Source: Thermoplasmata archaeon
GTDB taxonomy: Archaea > Thermoplasmatota > DTKX01 > VGTL01
DNA: 63,272 nt
NCBI GenBank assembly: GCA_038851035.1
Contig: JAWCLH010000015.1
Coordinates: 1 to 63,272, forward strand
Reading direction: 5' to 3'
Part shown: positions 1,221 through 14,420 of the stretch, piece by piece
Numbering within the stretch: position 1 is the first letter of the stretch
Layout: each line of letters opens with the position of its first letter
Translations under genes and position numbers: made by a program
The notes under the pieces: model-generated
Database searches by the model: none
What the model saw: the letters and a program-made list of their open reading frames with translations, nothing else
What the model was told of the DNA's origin: nothing

Positions 1221-4200
1221 CTACTTTCCTTCCCGAATTTTTCTCAGAACGGCCTCTAGCTCGTCGTAGCCATCACCGGGCGCGCTGCGAGCGGCTGCGT
1301 CCACCTCGGGTCTAGTGCGACCGGCCGGAGATGGGAGCCTAGCTTCAGCGGGGTCCGGAGGAGCAGGGTGGTGTGTTGCGGCGGGAGCGGCTCGCGTATG
1401 AACGGATGCCTGTGCCGGCTGACGGGGGCTCCAGCCGATGGGCTGGAGGGCTGGGATGCTCGGCCTCCGGTCCTCCAAAGAGACCCACGCGGGGCCCTGT
1501 GTACGAACCTGAGGAGGAGGAGTGGGCTGGCGCGGCGCTGCCACCGGCCAGGGCTCTATTGGCTCTGCAGGAGCTTCGGGAATCTCTTCATCGAGCAGGC
1601 TCCGAGGCCGGCTTTGCGCCCCTGTTGTGGGTCTGGGGATGCGGCCCGCCGGGCCTCTGGCCTCGTGAGCAGGGACAGTGGTCATCTGGCCCCAGAGCTT
1701 CACCCCCCTGAAGTCCGGCTCCGTGGAATACTCCGGTTCGGGGCGCGGGGGCGGGGCGCTCTCCTCCCACCTAACGACGGCTCCTCCGGGCGCGATATCA
1801 TATGTGTAGGCTACCGACCCGGGTGGTCCAGCCGGAGCGCCGAATGGGTCGGCGGCGATCTCCTTCCTCAGGCTGGTCGCCTCGAGCTCGTCGAGTTCCA
1901 TCGTGTGCCTGCGCTCCCTCTCCTCCTCTGCCCTCTCCACCTCTTTGTAGAGCCTCCTGCGGCGTCTCTCCTTAAGAACCCTTCTCACGAGAATTCCGGC
2001 GATCACGAGCGCCACTAGCCCGGCTATTAAATAGTAAAGCGCCGGGGGCAGTCCTGATAGGAAGCCGAGAATGTCGGGACCCCCTGTGCCAGGAGAGCGC
2101 GCGGGGGGAGCTGTGATGGTGAGCTCGAGCTCCTTCGAGACACTCTCGAGCCCGGAGCCATCCCTGACCCTGACCTTGATCAAGTACGTACCGGGATATG
2201 GGAAGCGCTGGATCCGTCTGCTCTCGTTTGTCCAGCCGCTCGTGCTTCCGTCGCCGAAATCGTACATATACTCCTGAATTCCATTGTCGTCTTCGGCTGT
2301 GACCGATATTTCAATATAGTCAAGCGTTGTCGCCCTTGTCCTGCTGATATTAAACAGCAAGATCGCGGGCGGGAGCGTGTCTACTCTGAAAGTCCGTTCG
2401 GAGCGCGGCTCCACATTCCCTGCAGCGTCAGTCGCAAAGAATGAGAGGGTGTGCCTGCCCTCAGGAATCTCGATAGGCTTCATGTAGCGGAGGAGTGCCC
2501 CGCTGTCCAAGCTGTACTGAATCACAGCCCCTTCCTCGGAAGAGAGAGTCACCTTCGGCCTCACATGGAACCAACCCGTACCGACGTCCCTCGGCACCAC
2601 ACTCGCGACCGTCAGTGGAGGGACGGAATCGAGCCTGAAGGCCCTCGAGAAATCAGGCCCTTTGTTGCCAGCCTCGTCTATCCCGTACCAGCCCAATGTG
2701 TGGGTGCCCTCGGGCATTGGGAAGGGCTCTGCGTACTGAACCATCGGGCCGCCATCCCATCTGTAAAATATCGTCACATTTCCGGTCTCATTTGCAATGA
2801 GTGTGATGTTGAAGGGAGTGATGTACCAGCCGTTGAGCCCATCGGGCTCCGAAATATCGGGCAGGGCCTCGACACCCGGAGGGCTTCCATCAACTTTTAT
2901 GACGGTCGAAAACGCAGGTCCGCGATTGCCCGCGGCGTCAACGGCGTAATATGTCAGCGTGTGGGCACCGGCGGGGGCTTTCAAATCCCTCGCGTACTGC
3001 TCTAGAGGGCCATCGTCCCAGCGATAATAGATTCGGGGGTCCGCAGGGTCGCTGGAGCTCAGGTTTATCCAGGGAGTCCTAAGGTACCAGCCCATTAGTC
3101 CGTCGGGCTTCTCTGGCCTAACAATGATGTCAACGGTCGGTGGAGTGGTATCCATTCTTGTCTCGAGAGTCCTCACGGTCTCGAGGTTCCCTGCCTGGTC
3201 CTCCGAGCGATAGTTGAATCTATGGTATCCCTCAAGTATCTCCACCGGGCCGTCGTAGCTACTGAATGGTTCATTGTCCCAGGACCAAAGGGTCCTGGCT
3301 TCTGGGGTGTCGCAGGTGAGCGATACTGCGGCGGAGCTATTGTACCAGCCATTCTGCCCAGTGGGCTCGGGGGGATTTATCGACGCGGTGGTCACGGGCG
3401 CGATTGTGTCGACGAGGAAGCACTTGCTCTTCTCCTGCTCGACGTTTCCCGCTCTGTCTACTGAGTGATATCGAAGTGTGTGGTTGCCTTCGGGCGGTCT
3501 GAGGCTCTTGTTGTACCTCTCAAAAGGGCTCGCGTCCCAGGCAAAGTATATCGCAGAGCCGGGTTCGTTGACGCTCAGAGTTATGGTGGGCGGTGTTGTG
3601 TACCACCCATTCTTGCCGTTAGGCGATGATGGAACCACAGATATTCTCGTCGAGGGTGGTGTAATGTCCACGACCCGGGCCTCGTATGTGTAGCCCACCG
3701 GACCCGAGAGCCCGCTGATGGCGATGCACGCGACAGCGTAGTCGCCCCCGAGATTCGGGACGAGCGCTGTGGCCCTACCTCCGGAGATCGCGGGCACCTC
3801 GACTCTGTCGGGCACGCTCCCGCCCACCTTCCCCACCATCGCCACGGCGCAGTACCCCGTCCCACCTGTGAATGTGAGGTTAATCTCGAGGTCGCCCATC
3901 AGCTGGTTCCAGACCGTGGGCTCGAATCGGATGTAGTCCGCGCTCCACCCCTCCTCCACTCGAGAGGAGCAGAAGAGCGGATAGCTCTTTTCAAGGAACG
4001 TGTGGCCCACGTAATTGAACACTCCCCTGTAGCCCCACTCCCCACTGTCCACGCTGGCGTTGTTGAGCCAATTGGCCATTACCCATTTCTTAAACACCGA
4101 CTCGAAGCTCTCTCCCTTCGGAGCCAGACGGTTGTTGTAGCTCTGAACTCCATCCGCGGTGTCGGCAACGAGGGCCCGGGTGAAGTCATTGCCACCGAAG

Positions 4201-4913
4201 CGCTCGTAGCAATAAATCGTGTAGAGCGCTGCACCGCCGTAGTCGCTGACGGTGTTCCAATCGATAAAGGAGTTGTCGGTGCCGGAGCCATATGCCGAGA
4301 AATGTGATGTTAGGCCGGGCCTCCCTCCGCCGTAGCAAACGTAGATACCGCACTCGGAGCACCCCTCGTTCAGCCATATCGCCTCGCTCGGGTCTTTAGA
4401 GTAGTGAATTAGGTGCTGGAACTCGTGGGCCGTTACGTCGAGGTCGACGTGTAGGTCATCGTAATCGAGGTATATCGCGTCCGGGTCGGATGAGCTGAAG
4501 TAGCCCGCAACGCCGCCCATGCCATCGTGGGACACAATGATGATGTCGATTTTCGAGAAGGGGGGGGTGCCGAAGGCCGCGGTGTCGTTTGGCCAGATGG
4601 TCTGAGTGAAGTTCTCATCTAGGCTGCGCACGGTCTCATAAGGGATGTTTCGGCCGCTGTTGTTTATTATATTGCAGTAGGGGCCACGGGCCAGATTCGA
4701 TTTCTCCGCGCTGGAGAGCTCTGGCAACGAAAAGTCCACAGGTGTGGAGTACAGAGCACCATCCGGGGAAAACCTGAGGGCGCAAGAGAAACCTGGCGAT
4801 GGCTCATCAACCGGGGCGGCCGGAAACACCGGCATGGCGGCTAGGAGCAGGATACCGAGCACTGAAAGGGCGGCAGGCCTCAGCCCCCGTCCATCACCAT
4901 CGACTGCTCCCAT
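1221..4913 (-). CDS. Large surface-anchored metalloprotease-like protein with five OmpL47-type repeats
   Basis: This 1230-residue protein starts with a signal peptide (hydrophobic core at about 14-33). The N-terminal domain carries a zinc-metalloprotease motif, HEFQH at 163-167, with a downstream WLNEG that supplies Glu183, in the gluzincin style. Then come five repeats of about 95 residues, each opening with a Gly-Trp-Tyr/Phe turn (NGWY, MGWY or TGWF) and closing with an A-V/T-D-A-A-G-N type strand, as in OmpL47-type beta domains. A PKD-like domain (YDFGDGS) follows, then a membrane segment (YYLIAGLVALVIAGILV), a basic stop-transfer and a cytoplasmic Pro-rich tail of about 250 residues. The active site should lie outside the cell. 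Peptidase activity is inferred from the motif; the substrate is unknown. Confidence 0.82.
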   Translation of the reverse strand: MGAVDGDGRGLRPAALSVLGILLLAAMPVFPAAPVDEPSPGFSCALRFSPDGALYSTPVDFSLPELSSAEKSNLARGPYCNIINNSGRNIPYETVRSLDENFTQTIWPNDTAAFGTPPFSKIDIIIVSHDGMGGVAGYFSSSDPDAIYLDYDDLHVDLDVTAHEFQHLIHYSKDPSEAIWLNEGCSECGIYVCYGGGRPGLTSHFSAYGSGTDNSFIDWNTVSDYGGAALYTIYCYERFGGNDFTRALVADTADGVQSYNNRLAPKGESFESVFKKWVMANWLNNASVDSGEWGYRGVFNYVGHTFLEKSYPLFCSSRVEEGWSADYIRFEPTVWNQLMGDLEINLTFTGGTGYCAVAMVGKVGGSVPDRVEVPAISGGRATALVPNLGGDYAVACIAISGLSGPVGYTYEARVVDITPPSTRISVVPSSPNGKNGWYTTPPTITLSVNEPGSAIYFAWDASPFERYNKSLRPPEGNHTLRYHSVDRAGNVEQEKSKCFLVDTIAPVTTASINPPEPTGQNGWYNSSAAVSLTCDTPEARTLWSWDNEPFSSYDGPVEILEGYHRFNYRSEDQAGNLETVRTLETRMDTTPPTVDIIVRPEKPDGLMGWYLRTPWINLSSSDPADPRIYYRWDDGPLEQYARDLKAPAGAHTLTYYAVDAAGNRGPAFSTVIKVDGSPPGVEALPDISEPDGLNGWYITPFNITLIANETGNVTIFYRWDGGPMVQYAEPFPMPEGTHTLGWYGIDEAGNKGPDFSRAFRLDSVPPLTVASVVPRDVGTGWFHVRPKVTLSSEEGAVIQYSLDSGALLRYMKPIEIPEGRHTLSFFATDAAGNVEPRSERTFRVDTLPPAILLFNISRTRATTLDYIEISVTAEDDNGIQEYMYDFGDGSTSGWTNESRRIQRFPYPGTYLIKVRVRDGSGLESVSKELELTITAPPARSPGTGGPDILGFLSGLPPALYYLIAGLVALVIAGILVRRVLKERRRRRLYKEVERAEEERERRHTMELDELEATSLRKEIAADPFGAPAGPPGSVAYTYDIAPGGAVVRWEESAPPPRPEPEYSTEPDFRGVKLWGQMTTVPAHEARGPAGRIPRPTTGAQSRPRSLLDEEIPEAPAEPIEPWPVAAPRQPTPPPQVRTQGPAWVSLEDRRPSIPALQPIGWSPRQPAQASVHTRAAPAATHHPAPPDPAEARLPSPAGRTRPEVDAAARSAPGDGYDELEAVLRKIREGK
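2375..3675 (-). repeat. Five tandem protein-level repeats inside the surface protease gene
   Basis: Five successive blocks of roughly 285 bases encode beta domains sharing a G-x-G-W-Y/F start, a Y-x-W-D-x-x-P-like centre and an H-T-L-x-Y/F-x-x-x-D-x-A-G-N end. They have diverged at the nucleotide level, so this is an old internal expansion, not a recent tandem duplication. Confidence 0.7.
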
Positions 4914-4981: not shown

Positions 4982-5989
4982 TCACTTCTCCTTTAGCACC
5001 AGGTTGTTTATCACGAGCTCGGCGATGTCGGCAGCGTACTCGCCAGTCCTTCTGACGCTCTCGCCTATATCCGTTACCGGAATGGAGGTGGCGCTCTTAA
5101 CATGCTGCGCCGCCTGATTGAGTTGCTCCACTTTCGAAATTAGGACCGGCAGGAGGTCGAGGCTCTCGTTTGCCCTCCGGATGTCCTGGGCAAACCAGCT
5201 CTCCAGGCTCGAGTTGAGTAGCTCGAGAGAATCTTTGCTGGCCTGCTTCAGGGACCCATAAAGCTCCTTCTCAAGCTTTTTGTCGAGGAGTTGGGTTACT
5301 GCGCGGGAGATTCTCACGCCATGGTCGCCGATGCGCTCCAGTATGCGGGCAATGAGGAAGTAGTGGGAGGCGTCCTCGAGCGTTATTCCCATCCGGCGCG
5401 CTAGTGTAACGTCAGATAGCATAATGCTGTGCTGGCGGGCTGCCAGCCAGTTCAACCGGTTGATTTCCATATCCCGGCGTTGTACGTCCTCCGCTAGGGC
5501 CCGTTCCCGCTTCTCAAGAGCTGTGAAGGCGTCCTCGTGCATGGTGCGGACAAGGATGTACATCCTCCGGATGGTCTTGTCAAAAGGCATTTCGGCGGGG
5601 TTGAGAAGATCCTTTATTGTGATGGATGATGGGCTCTCTTCCATGACCTCCGGACCGATTGTCATCTGAGAGAACTTCATTACTGTTTCGCGCACCTGTG
5701 CTGGCATGCGCCCGGAGGAGCGCAAAGTGATTGTTGTGTAGCCCATGATATAGGCAGCAATGAGTACGCGGAAAAGGTGTGTCTGGTCCCGGAGCTCCTC
5801 GACCTTTATGTCCTTGTTCCTCTGGGGACGGACCTCGGTTGTGCGCGTCGTCACGAGCAGCGTGCCGTCAGGCTGGGTGATGAGGCCAAGAGGATCGTTC
5901 TTCTTGACGTTAAGGGCTTTGATCCACTCTTTGGGGAGCGTGAGCACATAGGACGAGCCTCCCGTGAGCTGGACCTTGCGTATCTCCAT
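4982..5989 (-). CDS. AbrB-PhoU phosphate-uptake regulator
   Basis: A 335-residue protein with an N-terminal SpoVT/AbrB swapped-hairpin DNA-binding domain (residues 1-50; SSYVLTLPKEWIKALNV is the typical strand-turn-helix) followed by two PhoU helical repeats (about 120-330). This architecture is common in archaea next to phosphate transporters, where the protein is thought to link transporter state to transcription. It is divergent from the pst operon, and the shared 367-base spacer carries one copy of the same sequence element for each gene. It differs from the second PhoU protein at 10130-10780, which lacks the DNA-binding domain. It is the best candidate for the local regulator; direct binding is an inference. 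Confidence 0.88.
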   Translation of the reverse strand: MEIRKVQLTGGSSYVLTLPKEWIKALNVKKNDPLGLITQPDGTLLVTTRTTEVRPQRNKDIKVEELRDQTHLFRVLIAAYIMGYTTITLRSSGRMPAQVRETVMKFSQMTIGPEVMEESPSSITIKDLLNPAEMPFDKTIRRMYILVRTMHEDAFTALEKRERALAEDVQRRDMEINRLNWLAARQHSIMLSDVTLARRMGITLEDASHYFLIARILERIGDHGVRISRAVTQLLDKKLEKELYGSLKQASKDSLELLNSSLESWFAQDIRRANESLDLLPVLISKVEQLNQAAQHVKSATSIPVTDIGESVRRTGEYAADIAELVINNLVLKEK

Positions 5990-6048
5990 ATTGTTCCCTG
6001 AATGACCTATTGCTATTGTGTTTAATATTATTTTCTATAGTATATAAG

Positions 6049-6062
6049 TTGTCATATATATC
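6049..6062 (-). promoter_or_regulatory. Shared promoter element, copy facing the AbrB-PhoU gene
   Basis: Read on the minus strand this is GATATATATGACAA. Its last base is 60 bases before the ATG at 5989. The copy facing pstS is GATATATGACAA, ending 61 bases before that start. Same orientation relative to transcription and same distance suggest a common regulator site overlapping or flanking the TATA box. Confidence 0.55.
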
Positions 6063-6284
6063 GCTATATTCATATTGTATCTTACTATATTCCATATATA
6101 TTTGAGCGGCAGGACCGCCGGTCTTTATCGGGATGCCATCTGAATGAAAAACGGGTCAATCTTTTATCGTCCACGGTTCTGAGCGGGAGCCCGCGCCCTG
6201 CGCCTGCGTGCCGTCGATAGGAGATGGAGGGTGCCAATAGATATGATAGATATTATAGAGGCCTATGTATACACCATTTCTCCA

Positions 6285-6296
6285 GATATATGACAA
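6285..6296 (+). promoter_or_regulatory. Shared promoter element, copy facing pstS
   Basis: GATATATGACAA on the plus strand, beginning 72 bases before the ATG at 6357. The gatatatg part could itself be the TATA box, which would put transcription start near 6315 and leave a short leader containing ggtgaaa. The matching copy for the divergent regulator begins 73 bases before its start. Confidence 0.55.
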
Positions 6297-6356
6297 TAGT
6301 TTCTTTCGGACAGGTTAATCAGCCGGAGCGCCGGTCGGGCCCATGGTGAAATCAAT

Positions 6357-7202
6357 ATGGTGGGTGAAAAAATGAGAATCGGGGGCGCGGCGGCGGCCCT
6401 TGTGCTTGCGGCCGTGCTGCTCGGGGGGTGCGTGAGCCAGCCATCGGACGGAAAGAGAGAGACGCTGAGGATAGAGGGTTCAACGACCGTGTTCCCGATA
6501 GCCCAGAAGGCTGCCGAGGCCTACATGAACAAGAACAGGAACGCGGACATTCAGGTGAGCGCAACGGGCTCGGGCGCCGGGATAACCGCGGTCGGGCAGG
6601 GCCGGGCGGGGATAGGGATGTCCTCCCGGGACATCAAGAGTTCCGAGATGACGACATATCCCGACCTGCGGCCGGTGACCGTGGCGAAGGACGGCATCGC
6701 GCTCATCGTGCACAAGAGCAACCCCGTGTCGGCGCTGAACCTGTCCCAGATACGCGGCATTTACAACGGCACGATAAAGAACTGGAATCAGGTCGGCGGG
6801 GCCGACGCATCCATCGTGGTCATCGGCCGGGACGCGGCGTCCGGGACGCGGGAGTTCTTCTGGGAGCACGTGATGGCCAAGGAGAACTTCACGGAGGGCA
6901 TGCTGGAGAAAAACTCCAACGCCGCCATCAAGGAGTCGGTGATCTCGACGCCGGGTGCGATAGGCTATGTCGGCCTGGGGTACGTTGACAGCTCGGTCAA
7001 GGCGCTGAAGATATCCACCTCAGCCGGGGATGTCGAGGCCAGCGTGGCCAACGTGCTGAACGGGACCTACCCGATCTCGAGAAGCCTCTATTTCATAACG
7101 AAGGGCGAGCCCAAGGGCCTCGCGAAGAAGTTCATAGACTTCCTGCTGAGCGCGCAGGGGCAGAAGATAGTGCAGGACGAGGGCTTCGTACCGATAAAGT
7201 GA
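6357..7202 (+). CDS. pstS: Phosphate-binding lipoprotein PstS
   Basis: A 281-residue extracytoplasmic phosphate-binding protein of the high-affinity Pst ABC transporter. It has a lipoprotein-type signal with LLGGC at about 21-25, so the mature protein is probably lipid-anchored at Cys25. Phosphate-binding loops are recognisable: IEGSTTVFPIAQ near the start of the mature chain, TGSGAGITAVGQG, MSSRDIK and the DAASGTREFFWE loop. The start is either the ATG at 6357 or the in-frame ATG at 6372 (MRIGG), which gives a more usual signal-peptide length and has ggtgggtg before it. It is the first gene of the operon, and its stop overlaps the GTG start of pstCA. Confidence 0.95.
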   Translation: MVGEKMRIGGAAAALVLAAVLLGGCVSQPSDGKRETLRIEGSTTVFPIAQKAAEAYMNKNRNADIQVSATGSGAGITAVGQGRAGIGMSSRDIKSSEMTTYPDLRPVTVAKDGIALIVHKSNPVSALNLSQIRGIYNGTIKNWNQVGGADASIVVIGRDAASGTREFFWEHVMAKENFTEGMLEKNSNAAIKESVISTPGAIGYVGLGYVDSSVKALKISTSAGDVEASVANVLNGTYPISRSLYFITKGEPKGLAKKFIDFLLSAQGQKIVQDEGFVPIK

Positions 7203-9262
7203 GGAAGGCTGAGAGGAAAGGAAGCTGTACGAGCGGAAGCAGAAAAAGAAACGAGAATAAGAGCCGGGGCCCCCTCATCAGGGGGTCCCGGACCAGATGG
7301 GGCGAGCTCGGCATCCGCTCCGCCCTTTTTGTTTCGGCAATTCTGGCCATCGTCATCGTGTTCTTCATCATCGTGTTTCTTTTCCGGGAGGCCTATCCGG
7401 CCTTCACCGGCATAGGAGCGGGCGAGGTTGTCGCGGGTGACAAGTGGAACCCGACCGGTGAGCCACCGGCATACGGCGCCCGCCCGCTCATCGCCGGCAC
7501 ACTCCTGGTCACGCTGGGGGCAATGGTCTTCTCCGTGCCAATAGGAATCGGCTCGGCCATATTTATCGCGGAGCTGGCCCCGCCGCGCCTCCGCCAAGTC
7601 CTGAAATCCGTCTCCGAGATACTCTCGGGGATACCGTCTGTGGTTTATGGCTTCTTTGGGCTCGTGGTGCTCACGGACTTTTTACGCGTGAGCTCTGGCC
7701 AGCCGACGGGGGAGAGCTGGCTGGCCGGCTCCCTTATTCTGGGCATCATGGCTCTGCCCATGATAGTGAGCGTCTCGGAGGATGCGATAAGCTCCGTGCC
7801 GAGGGAATATGTGGAGGCGTCGCTCGCGTCTGGCGCCACGCGCTGGCAGACCGTGAGCCGCGTCGTTCTCCCGGCCGCGATGTCCGGCATCGCCGCGGCC
7901 ATCATACTGGGTATGGGCCGCGCGATAGGCGAGACCATGGCGGTCATGATGGTGTGCGGCAACTCGCCCCTCATCCCCCAGCCCATCACCAATGTCTTTT
8001 CACCCATACGGACCATAACCAGCACGCTGGGAATCGAGATGGGCGAGGTCGCCTGGGGCGGCGACCACTACAGCGCCCTTTTCGCGCTGGCGGTCATCCT
8101 GTTCATCATTACGATAGTGATGAACAGCATCGCCAACTACATACTAGGCCGGCTCAAGCAGAAGTTCAGACCGTCGGCGCGCACCGGCGCCCGCGGAACC
8201 GCTTTCTGGCGGCCCCGCCTTCCCGTCCTGGCCCGGACGGTTGACCGCGTCTGGAAGAAACTGGCGCCGCGCCTCCCGACCCTCAGACTGTGGGCCGGCC
8301 GGGCGTTCAAGGCGCTGGGGGCGCTCGTCCTTGCGTGGCTCCTCGTCTCATGGTTCGGCTGGCTCTACGCCCCCGGGCTCATCGCCCTTCTGGTGCTCAT
8401 GACCTTCCTCTGGAGGAGGGCAAGCGAGAGGCTCAAGCAGCTGGTGGCATTCGGCATGGTCACGGCGGCGGTTCTGACGCTCCTCTTCCTTCTTGGCATT
8501 ATCTTGTGTTATATAATTATCAACGGCGCCCCGGCGCTGAGCGCGGAGTTCCTGACGACGCCGCCGCGCGACATCGGCCGCGCGGGAGGCATATTCCCAG
8601 CCATAGTCGGGACACTGTACCTGGTTGCTGGGGCCCTTCTCCTCGCGGTCCCTGTGGGCATCGGGGCTGGAATCTACCTTAACGAATACGCCCAAACCGG
8701 AAAGCTCACAAAGTTCATCCGGGCCGGAATAGACAACCTCAACGGCACGCCTTCCATCGTGTTCGGGCTTTTCGGCCTGTCCTTCCTGGTGCTCTACCTG
8801 AAGCTCGGCGTGTCCATGCTCGCCGGCCAGCTCACGCTAGGCTTCATGATTCTCCCCACCGTAATACGAACCACGGAAGAGGCGCTCAAGACGGTCCCTC
8901 AGCCCATACGCGAGGGGAGCCTCGCAACGGGCGCGACCAAGTGGCAGACCATCCGTAAGGTAGTGCTGCCCAACTCGGCCCCGGGCATCCTGACGGGCAT
9001 TGTGCTCGCGATGGGTCGCGCCGCCGGCGAGACGGCTCCTATAATGTTCACGGCGGTGGTGTTCAGCACCCGCTTCCTTCCCGAGTCTCTGCTGGACCCG
9101 GTGATGGCCCTTCCGTATCACCTCTTCGCGCTGGCCACCAGCGTGCCCGGCGCAAAAACCAACGCCTACGGTACGGCGCTCGTGCTGCTCCTGGTGGTGC
9201 TGCCGATGTACGCAGCAGCCACAATTCTCAGGCTAAAATATGTGAAGAATGTCAGGTGGTGA
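7199..9262 (+). CDS. Fused phosphate permease PstC-PstA
   Basis: A single 687-residue frame holds both membrane subunits that are usually separate in the Pst transporter. Residues of about 20-330 match PstC (a TM start, then the EYVEASLASGATRWQTV cytoplasmic coupling loop that contacts the ATPase). About 330-430 is a linker with two or three extra hydrophobic segments. About 430-687 matches PstA, with its own coupling loop (PIREGSLATGATKWQTI) and the terminal segments. The GTG start at 7199 overlaps the pstS stop (GTGA). The N-terminal 35 residues are basic and poorly conserved. The frame is continuous with no stop between the two halves, so the fusion is real in this sequence. Confidence 0.93.
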   Translation: MRKAERKGSCTSGSRKRNENKSRGPLIRGSRTRWGELGIRSALFVSAILAIVIVFFIIVFLFREAYPAFTGIGAGEVVAGDKWNPTGEPPAYGARPLIAGTLLVTLGAMVFSVPIGIGSAIFIAELAPPRLRQVLKSVSEILSGIPSVVYGFFGLVVLTDFLRVSSGQPTGESWLAGSLILGIMALPMIVSVSEDAISSVPREYVEASLASGATRWQTVSRVVLPAAMSGIAAAIILGMGRAIGETMAVMMVCGNSPLIPQPITNVFSPIRTITSTLGIEMGEVAWGGDHYSALFALAVILFIITIVMNSIANYILGRLKQKFRPSARTGARGTAFWRPRLPVLARTVDRVWKKLAPRLPTLRLWAGRAFKALGALVLAWLLVSWFGWLYAPGLIALLVLMTFLWRRASERLKQLVAFGMVTAAVLTLLFLLGIILCYIIINGAPALSAEFLTTPPRDIGRAGGIFPAIVGTLYLVAGALLLAVPVGIGAGIYLNEYAQTGKLTKFIRAGIDNLNGTPSIVFGLFGLSFLVLYLKLGVSMLAGQLTLGFMILPTVIRTTEEALKTVPQPIREGSLATGATKWQTIRKVVLPNSAPGILTGIVLAMGRAAGETAPIMFTAVVFSTRFLPESLLDPVMALPYHLFALATSVPGAKTNAYGTALVLLLVVLPMYAAATILRLKYVKNVRW

Positions 9263-9268
9263 GAGGAG

Positions 9269-10105
9269 ATGGGCGAAGCTGGGGTTGACGGTCGGGGGGG
9301 GCTGGTGGGCGCAGCCGGTGTCGCGAGAAGAAAGAGGGGCTGCGGCACCAACGGCGTGGCCATCGAGTGCCGGAAGGTGAATCTGTGGTACGGGGACACG
9401 CAGGCGCTGTTCGACATAGACCTCAAGATTGTGAGGAACGCCGTTACGGCGCTCATAGGCCCCTCGGGATGCGGAAAGTCCACGCTCATCAGGACCCTGA
9501 ACCGGATGAACGACGTAATCGAGGGCTGCAGGACCACGGGAGAGATTCTGTTCTGCGGTGCCAATATACTGGACAGGGAGACCGAAGTCACGGAACTCAG
9601 GAGGAGAATAGGCATGGTATTCCAGAAGCCCAACCCCTTCCCGATGTCGGTCTACGACAACGTGGCCTATGGACCGCGCGTCCACGGCCTCCGGAACCGG
9701 AAAGAGCTTGACGCCGTCGTGGAGAGGAGCCTGAAAGAGGCCGCGCTGTGGGAGGAGGTCAGGGACAGGCTCAACGAGAGCGCACTCGGCCTCTCCGGAG
9801 GCCAGCAGCAGCGCCTCTGCATCGCCAGAGCGCTAGCGGTTGGCCCCGAGGTCATCCTGATGGACGAGCCCTGCTCCGCCCTGGACCCGATCGCCACCGG
9901 CAAAATCGAGGACCTCATTGACACCCTGAGGGAGAGGCTCACGGTGGTCATCGTGACCCACAACATGCAGCAGGCGGCGAGAATCAGCGACTTCACGGGC
10001 TTCATGTACATGGGCAGGCTGATAGAGTATGGTGAGACGGAACGGATGTTCAAGAGCCCGAAGGAGGAGCTGACCGAGAGGTATATAACGGGGAGGTTCG
10101 GATAG
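9269..10105 (+). CDS. pstB: Phosphate transporter ATPase PstB
   Basis: A 278-residue ABC ATPase that powers the Pst transporter. Walker A is GPSGCGKST (64-72), the Q-loop is in [11 protein letters not shown] (118-127), the ABC signature is LSGGQ (175-179) and Walker B is VILMDEP (195-201), followed by the switch His in VIVTHNM. The [10 protein letters not shown] string and the NRMND region after Walker A are typical of PstB among ABC ATPases. The first 28 residues are a Gly/Arg-rich extension not needed for the fold; an internal start nearer to [11 protein letters not shown] is possible but no better codon is evident. It begins 6 bases after pstCA. Confidence 0.95.
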
Positions 10106-10129: not shown

Positions 10130-10780
10130 ATGACCGAGAAGTTTCATACGGAGCTTGATGCGCTCAAAAGGGACATGATGGAGATGGGGCGCCTCGCAAC
10201 GGGAATGCTGAGGGACGCCATTCGAGCCCTGAAGGAGAGGGACGCGGGACTGGCGCGCGATGTGCAGGCCAGGAAAAAGGAGCTGGCCGAGTGGGACGAC
10301 AGAATAGAGGACAGGGCGCTGAAGCTGATCGCGCTCCACCAGCCGGTCGCGAGCGACCTGAGGACCCTCGCCTGCATCCTGAAGATGGACACCTATCTGG
10401 CCCGCGTTGGCAGGTACGGCAAGGACATCGCCCAGGTGGCGGAGGAGCTTGCAGAAAAGCCGCATCTCGCGAAGCTGGTCAGCATACCGCACATGAGCGA
10501 GGTGGCTGCCGGCATGGTCGAGGACGCGCTCAAGGCATTCGAGAGTTGCGACCTGTCGCTCCTGAAGGACTTCAGCGAGAAGGACGACGCCCTCGACGCC
10601 CAGAGGTGGGCGATATTCAGGGAGTGCGTGACCTACATGATGGAGGACCCGAAGAACATAACCCAGTGCGCCCACTACATCATGGTTGCAAAGTACCTCG
10701 AGCGCGTGGCCGACCACGCCTGCAAGATGGCCGAGAAAATTCATTACATGGTCACGGGAGAGAGAATAGAGATAAAATGA
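10130..10780 (+). CDS. phoU: PhoU phosphate transport regulator
   Basis: A 216-residue all-helical PhoU protein made of two three-helix bundles, each with the acidic metal-binding signature (first around DDRIEDRALKLI and YGKDIAQ, second around YLERVADHACKMAE). In bacteria PhoU damps Pst transport and signals phosphate sufficiency to PhoR. No PhoR-PhoB pair is seen here, so it more likely acts on PstB and on the AbrB-PhoU regulator at 4982-5989. It starts with a ggtgagaac leader 24 bases after pstB, in the same operon. Confidence 0.93.
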   Translation: MTEKFHTELDALKRDMMEMGRLATGMLRDAIRALKERDAGLARDVQARKKELAEWDDRIEDRALKLIALHQPVASDLRTLACILKMDTYLARVGRYGKDIAQVAEELAEKPHLAKLVSIPHMSEVAAGMVEDALKAFESCDLSLLKDFSEKDDALDAQRWAIFRECVTYMMEDPKNITQCAHYIMVAKYLERVADHACKMAEKIHYMVTGERIEIK

Positions 10781-10815: not shown

Positions 10816-11364
10816 ATGTCTGGTGGGAGGCAGGGGGAGCTGAGCCCCGATGAAGGGGTGCCCAGAGACGACCGCGCGAAAGGAGAAGCGGGAGAGCAGG
10901 GAAGCGGGAGGAAGAGCGTTCTGTTCATATGCACCCACAACTCCGCCCGCTCGCAGATGGCGGAGGGCCTTCTCAGGGCGCTTCACGGGGACCGCTACGA
11001 GGCCTTCAGCGCCGGGACGGAGCCTGCCCGGGTCCACCCCCTCGCTATCAGGGTGATGGCTGAGGTCGGGGTAGACATCTCCGGCCAGCGCTCCAAGAGC
11101 CTCGAGGAGTTCAGGGGGCGGGAGTTCGATTGGGTCGTGACGGTCTGCGACCGCGCCCATCAGACGTGCCCCTTCTTCCCCGGAGGGAAAATCCAACTCC
11201 ACCGGGGCTTCGATGACCCGGCCGGAGCCGGCGGCAGCGAAGAGGAGAGGCTGGCCGCCTTCAGGCGCGTCAGGGATGAGCTCAGGGACTGGATTGACTC
11301 CACCTTTGGAAAGACCCCCTCTGGAGAGCGCAGGAGGACCCGCCTCCCCGAGTTCCGTATCTGA
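10816..11364 (+). CDS. arsC: Thioredoxin-coupled arsenate reductase
   Basis: A protein of the low-molecular-weight phosphatase/ArsC family, 182 residues with a nonconserved 30-residue N-terminal extension. The P-loop is CTHNSAR (Cys39 to Arg45). Two more cysteines, Cys111 and Cys118 (VCDRAHQTCPFF), lie 72 and 79 residues after Cys39, the spacing of the Cys10/Cys82/Cys89 relay in Staphylococcus aureus pI258 ArsC. That supports arsenate reduction over a pure tyrosine phosphatase role. It follows phoU by 35 bases at the end of the pst operon; since Pst transporters also admit arsenate, co-expression would make sense. No arsenite pump gene is in the window. Confidence 0.87.
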   Translation: MSGGRQGELSPDEGVPRDDRAKGEAGEQGSGRKSVLFICTHNSARSQMAEGLLRALHGDRYEAFSAGTEPARVHPLAIRVMAEVGVDISGQRSKSLEEFRGREFDWVVTVCDRAHQTCPFFPGGKIQLHRGFDDPAGAGGSEEERLAAFRRVRDELRDWIDSTFGKTPSGERRRTRLPEFRI

Positions 11365-11487: not shown

Positions 11488-11499
11488 GACCGACAGAGC

Positions 11500-14420
<2,921 letters not shown>

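Follow-up and report, generated by a model that had tools for sequence, protein, structure and literature searches.

Do the two near-identical short sequences that lie between the divergent genes of an AbrB-PhoU protein and a pst operon in a Thermoplasmata archaeon form a regulatory element of phosphate uptake, and if so, which protein reads it? The original prediction took them for a site through which the AbrB-PhoU protein controls both promoters. We examined them in the whole 63,272-nucleotide contig on which they lie (hereafter the window, 63 kb), in the 2,687,448-base genome to which it belongs (2.69 Mb; G000) and in related archaea. The twin element between the regulator gene and the pst operon is real. 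We put at roughly 0.6 the probability that the two sites belong to a phosphate-responsive operator/promoter element, the form that an archaeal Pho box takes in this lineage, with the adjacent AbrB-PhoU protein as its likely reader.

The AbrB-PhoU regulator and its neighbours

The AbrB-PhoU gene is divergent from pstS, a fused pstC-pstA gene, pstB and phoU:

4982..5989, minus strand: AbrB-PhoU regulator, with an N-terminal AbrB/MazE-type domain, a weak Alba-like middle and a C-terminal PhoU (PF04014, 2.3e-10; PF01895, 3.8e-20)
6357..7202, plus strand: pstS, with ATG 6372 as alternative start (TIGR02136, 1.2e-76)
7199..9262, plus strand: pstC and pstA joined in one 687-aa frame (TIGR02138 and TIGR00974 on the single frame)
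9269..10105, plus strand: pstB (TIGR00972, 2e-123)
10130..10780, plus strand: phoU (TIGR02135, 3.3e-55)

That the regulator combines an AbrB domain with PhoU, as had been proposed, was borne out: PF04014 and PF01895 both score above cut-off, the AbrB/MazE domain first and PhoU after it, and for the C-terminal part of an AlphaFold model the best structural matches in Foldseek are solved PhoU structures (TM of about 0.8 to the target). Residues ~58-130 are modelled as beta-alpha-beta-alpha-beta-beta, for which Foldseek gave weak matches to Alba proteins (1udv, 8xap; E 0.1-0.8), and the model suggests an AbrB / Alba-like / PhoU architecture. This was the only AbrB-PhoU gene found in the G000 genome. 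By sequence, pst, Pit or Na/Pi genes adjoin the regulator in many relatives, indicating a genomic association with phosphate transport.

The surroundings of the locus show several other features. An ArsC-type low-molecular-weight phosphatase gene follows phoU (10816-11364); in G073 (L251) a gene of this kind comes after pstS. An archaeal 23S rRNA gene (11492-14418, minus strand) adjoins the pst operon; neither 16S nor 5S rRNA was found in the 63-kb window at Rfam gathering scores. Downstream of the regulator, positions 1221-4913 encode a large predicted secreted protein of 1230 aa with repeated Ig/PKD-like domains.

Position and rarity of the twin sites

6062..6049, minus strand: site 1, GATATATATGACAA, facing the AbrB-PhoU gene (genome rarity; inverted counterpart before the orthologous regulator in G001)
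6285..6296, plus strand: site 2, GATATATGACAA, facing pstS (genome rarity; ATATATAACAATATAG at the same place in some relatives)

Both sites exist as originally described, in the same orientation relative to the gene that each precedes, and the distances given for them were confirmed: 73 nt separate the first base of site 1 from ATG 5989, and 72 nt separate site 2 from ATG 6357. The agreement between the two distances is soft, however: pstS could equally well start at ATG 6372, which is in frame and has a GGTGA of its own, and site 2 would then be 87 nt away. Given this ambiguity of the pstS start, we have dropped the idea that the distance of 72-73 nt to the start codon is meaningful, and it is probably incidental. 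What probably matters instead is how far the sites lie from the BRE/TATA box (13 and 11 nt).

Three copies of ATATATGACAA exist in the G000 genome, two of which are at the AbrB-PhoU/pst locus, and the reversed pattern has none. The third (C26:8560; L010:1501) lies ~48 nt before a Gar1 gene followed by tfb, at no phosphate locus; it is the sole other intergenic copy in the genome and has a TATA-like context. TATATGACAA has six copies, and the three that fall outside the AbrB-PhoU/pst locus and the gar1-tfb intergenic region are all inside ORFs. Sites with a single mismatch were inspected elsewhere in the genome; several of them fall inside ORFs, and no recognised phosphate gene adjoins any of them. 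The window taken alone offers weak evidence, with 4 matches at up to two mismatches against 1.6 expected.

A single relative among the 60 genomes searched, G001, belongs to the same family. Its 3.4 Mb contain one copy of TATATGACAA, which is inverted and lies 66 nt upstream of the start of the orthologous regulator (80% identical); no homolog of the window PstS was seen in this genome. The motif search suggested with the original prediction hence gave a divided answer: the rarity of the motif, its concentration at this locus and the G001 copy upstream of the regulator speak for the prediction, while the inversion of that copy and the occurrence at the unrelated gar1-tfb genes speak against it. 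As the conserved core GATATATGACAA was not upheld: it is a fragment of the wider element described below, in the form that this family shows, and it is inverted in G001, absent from the Pit promoter of G000 and present once at gar1-tfb.

A near-palindrome and a promoter box conserved in other archaea

The upstream regions of 54 homologous regulators were gathered from Thermoplasmatota, Methanomicrobiales, Asgard and other archaea. A 20-bp near-palindrome, acTATATAtataTATATAgt, is common to the promoters of about 50 homologous regulators, and next to it stands a pst promoter box, TATAtTcTATgTCGAaAAagTATATAT. The near-palindrome reached an EM log-likelihood of 233, as compared with 55-60 on shuffled input, and in the conserved promoters this putative operator is located just upstream of BRE (GAAAAA) and TATA. 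The exact 12-mer was ruled out as the conserved unit, as it is not retained outside the window's family.

Shorter motifs are also enriched. TATAGAAA is found in 14 of 51 related regulator promoters versus 0.96 expected (its reverse complement in 1). Of 32 related pst promoters, 4 carry TATAT[AG]ACAA in the orientation of site 2, versus 0.06 expected. Where the window has ATATATGACAATAG, several relatives show ATATATAACAATATAG, facing pst. The presence of ATATATAACAATATAG and TATAT[AG]ACAA at the same place in relatives ties the motif of the twin sites to the conserved operator.

Since shuffles do not preserve local AT-rich islands, we added a cross-clade test, training on Methanomicrobiales and Asgard and testing on the remainder (mainly Thermoplasmatota), and the reverse, with column-permuted matrices of unchanged composition as controls. 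The palindrome and the pst box were both recovered across the clade sets (0/400 permuted matrices in all four comparisons). A simple IUPAC palindrome pattern was no commoner than its reversed control and is not specific as a regulon finder.

The conserved element in the window

When the window was scanned with matrices trained on other archaea, the window's family being excluded, the following positions emerged:

6053..6072, no strand: near-palindromic operator candidate CATATATATCGCTATATTCA, overlapping site 1; best position of the palindrome matrix in the 63-kb window, equalled by 17 of 2000 permuted matrices
6025..6046, minus strand: regulator promoter box TATATACTATAGAAAATAATAT (probable BRE and TATA), directly downstream of site 1; best position of the pst matrix
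6252..6271, no strand: second near-palindrome ATTATAGAGGCCTATGTATA; rank 4 of the palindrome matrix in the window, with 53 of 2000 permuted matrices as good
6295..6316, plus strand: pst promoter box AATAGTTTCTTTCGGACAGGTT (degenerate BRE, TATA region), directly downstream of site 2; second-best position of the pst matrix (2 of 2000 permuted)

The two best of ~126,000 window positions for the pst-box matrix are thus 6046..6025 (minus) and 6295-6316 (plus), each in the same orientation relative to its own gene as the twin site that it follows. None of 600 column-permuted matrices placed both promoters in the top 5 of the window. The box TATATACTATAGAAAATAATAT alone is not significant, 189 of 2000 permuted matrices being as good. 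Part of the second near-palindrome, ATAGGCCTCTATA, is found in the G009 regulator promoter as well. In the G000 background (~110 kb of loci chosen for AT-rich matches) other sites score equally high, and the matrices alone would therefore not single out these promoters genome-wide; the fit of the conserved matrices to this genome is only moderate.

Recurrence at other phosphate-uptake promoters

An Infernal model of the box, R1, was built from 27 promoters, excluding the window's family, and run on whole genomes. Match loci were checked by sequence for training sites and only loci without one were counted; genes at the matches were identified with Pfam if a scan had been run, and by inspection of the translations if not. 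Six of the seven strongest matches at such non-training loci are phosphate-uptake promoters, and exceptions occur further down. The phosphate-related matches (E values) are:

before DUF47 (usually found together with Pit): G066, 3.6e-9 (top match of that genome)
at a second regulator/pst pair: G077, 3.9e-8
before pstS: G073, 1.4e-6; G068, 1.4e-4; G078, 2.3e-4; G067, 0.007; G072, 0.058
at regulator/pstB: G067, 4.3e-4

Matches with no evident phosphate link precede the gene of an Ig-like secreted protein (G069:C28:71516, L265; 2.5e-5) and a HAMP receptor gene (G063:C2:388269, L268; 1e-3), and these two are either chance hits or unexpected members of the regulon. Further matches with no evident phosphate link are in G006, G073 and G082. 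R1 gave no match at E<=1 in the G000 genome. Genome-wide in G001, its best match is the promoter of the DUF47-Pit operon (E 0.037), where the site, AATATATATTAATATATAGA, is an imperfect palindrome.

The palindrome with one mismatch stands before a Na/Pi cotransporter gene in G009 and before this DUF47-Pit operon in G001 (0/2000 and 1/2000 permuted matrices, respectively). In both cases the gene upstream runs in the same direction, and divergent TATA boxes therefore do not explain these palindromes. That sites precede non-homologous genes speaks for a regulatory element and against common ancestry as the source of the likeness. The DUF47-Pit promoter of G000 itself has a marginal element (73/2000 permuted), without TGACAA.

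The element is located in pst, Pit and Na/Pi cotransporter promoters of several archaeal groups and, judged by the strongest R1 matches, is enriched at phosphate-uptake genes relative to other promoters. The broader part of the original prediction, a shared regulatory element of the phosphate promoters flanking the AbrB-PhoU gene that is comparable to an archaeal Pho box, is supported by the near-palindrome and box at corresponding positions in several phyla and again before other phosphate transporters.

Alternative explanations

The core of the twin sites is AT-rich, and one may ask whether they are plain TATA boxes (ATATATGA), each in an unremarkable promoter with a leader of ~45 nt, and alike only as any pair of TATA boxes is. 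The third exact copy, ~48 nt before Gar1, fits this explanation, since TTATATATATG, which follows AGAAAG there, resembles BRE/TATA. However, the BRE/TATA of the relatives lies downstream of the corresponding place, and the window has candidate boxes there; an inverted copy, as in G001, would hardly be tolerated for a directional TATA box at the same place; and if ATATATGACAA were a plain TATA box, more than three copies of it would be expected in 2.69 Mb. We consider this explanation unlikely. An accidental likeness of two AT-rich boxes is far less probable still: the count within the window is only mildly above expectation, but the genome-wide rarity, the retention in G001 and the match to the element derived from other archaea have largely refuted it.

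The sites may instead be a genuine phosphate operator that is read by another protein, with AbrB-PhoU only modulating that protein or the transporter. In favour of this, the element also stands before Pit and Na/Pi transporter genes that are remote from the regulator gene. Against this, the regulator has a DNA-binding domain and often adjoins phosphate-uptake genes, and a near-palindromic site suits a dimeric AbrB protein. This possibility appears to us quite improbable, somewhat more so than that of plain TATA boxes.

Proposed mechanism

The sequence itself shows the two sites and how rare they are, as well as the conserved element, which recurs at other phosphate-uptake genes. With a phosphate operator read by AbrB-PhoU as the preferred explanation, one may propose the following model. 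Each of the divergent promoters would have a near-palindromic AT-rich operator that includes TGACAA and immediately precedes the BRE/TATA region of the respective gene. A dimer of AbrB-PhoU would bind this operator through the AbrB domain, while its PhoU domain, perhaps in touch with the Pst transporter, would make binding depend on phosphate status; AbrB-PhoU would in this way control both pst and its own gene. As to the sign of the regulation, we infer that activation at low phosphate fits better than simple repression, because the operator sits just upstream of BRE/TATA. Activators in archaea are reported to bind upstream of BRE/TATA and repressors downstream (PMC4158304). In Methanosarcina mazei, pst transcripts rise on phosphate starvation (PMC6864096).

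Relation to known phosphate control systems

A Pho box as such is already known in Halobacterium, and the element described here would be a variant. In the pst promoters of Halobacterium salinarum, the Pho box was reported as a PhoU-regulator binding motif that is essential for upregulation (Furtwangler et al. 2010, as cited in PMC6560208). By description, it resembles the window element in being a cis element of archaeal pst promoters. Haloferax volcanii PhoU2 (HVO_2374), again likened by description, differs from the AbrB-PhoU candidate of the window in that no operator is described for it in the accessible text of PMC6267482. Palindromic sites upstream of BRE/TATA at activated promoters are known also for archaeal activators of the TrmB family (PMC4158304), whereas the protein family and the motif are different. 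We found no operator for AbrB-PhoU regulators outside the haloarchaea in the openly accessible literature.

The Pho box of bacteria is, like the window element, a repeated element before phosphate-uptake genes, but it consists of direct repeats, and PhoB, which reads it, is the response regulator of a two-component system, where the window has a near-palindrome and a candidate AbrB-PhoU fusion. More speculatively, one ancestral operator (acTATATAtataTATATAgt plus a TCGAAAAA box), read by AbrB-PhoU fusions, may control pst, Pit and Na/Pi genes across Thermoplasmatota, Methanomicrobiales and Asgard, as a pan-archaeal Pho regulon that works without a two-component system; we hold this wider idea tentatively, its chances being slightly below even.

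Phosphate control in archaea is little understood. As one lineage's version of an element that occurs in many archaea, the twin element is a good candidate for a switch of phosphate uptake. A conserved operator with testable targets would turn its function into a simple binding or reporter question in culturable methanogens, and the matrix may be used to predict phosphate regulons in uncultured archaea.
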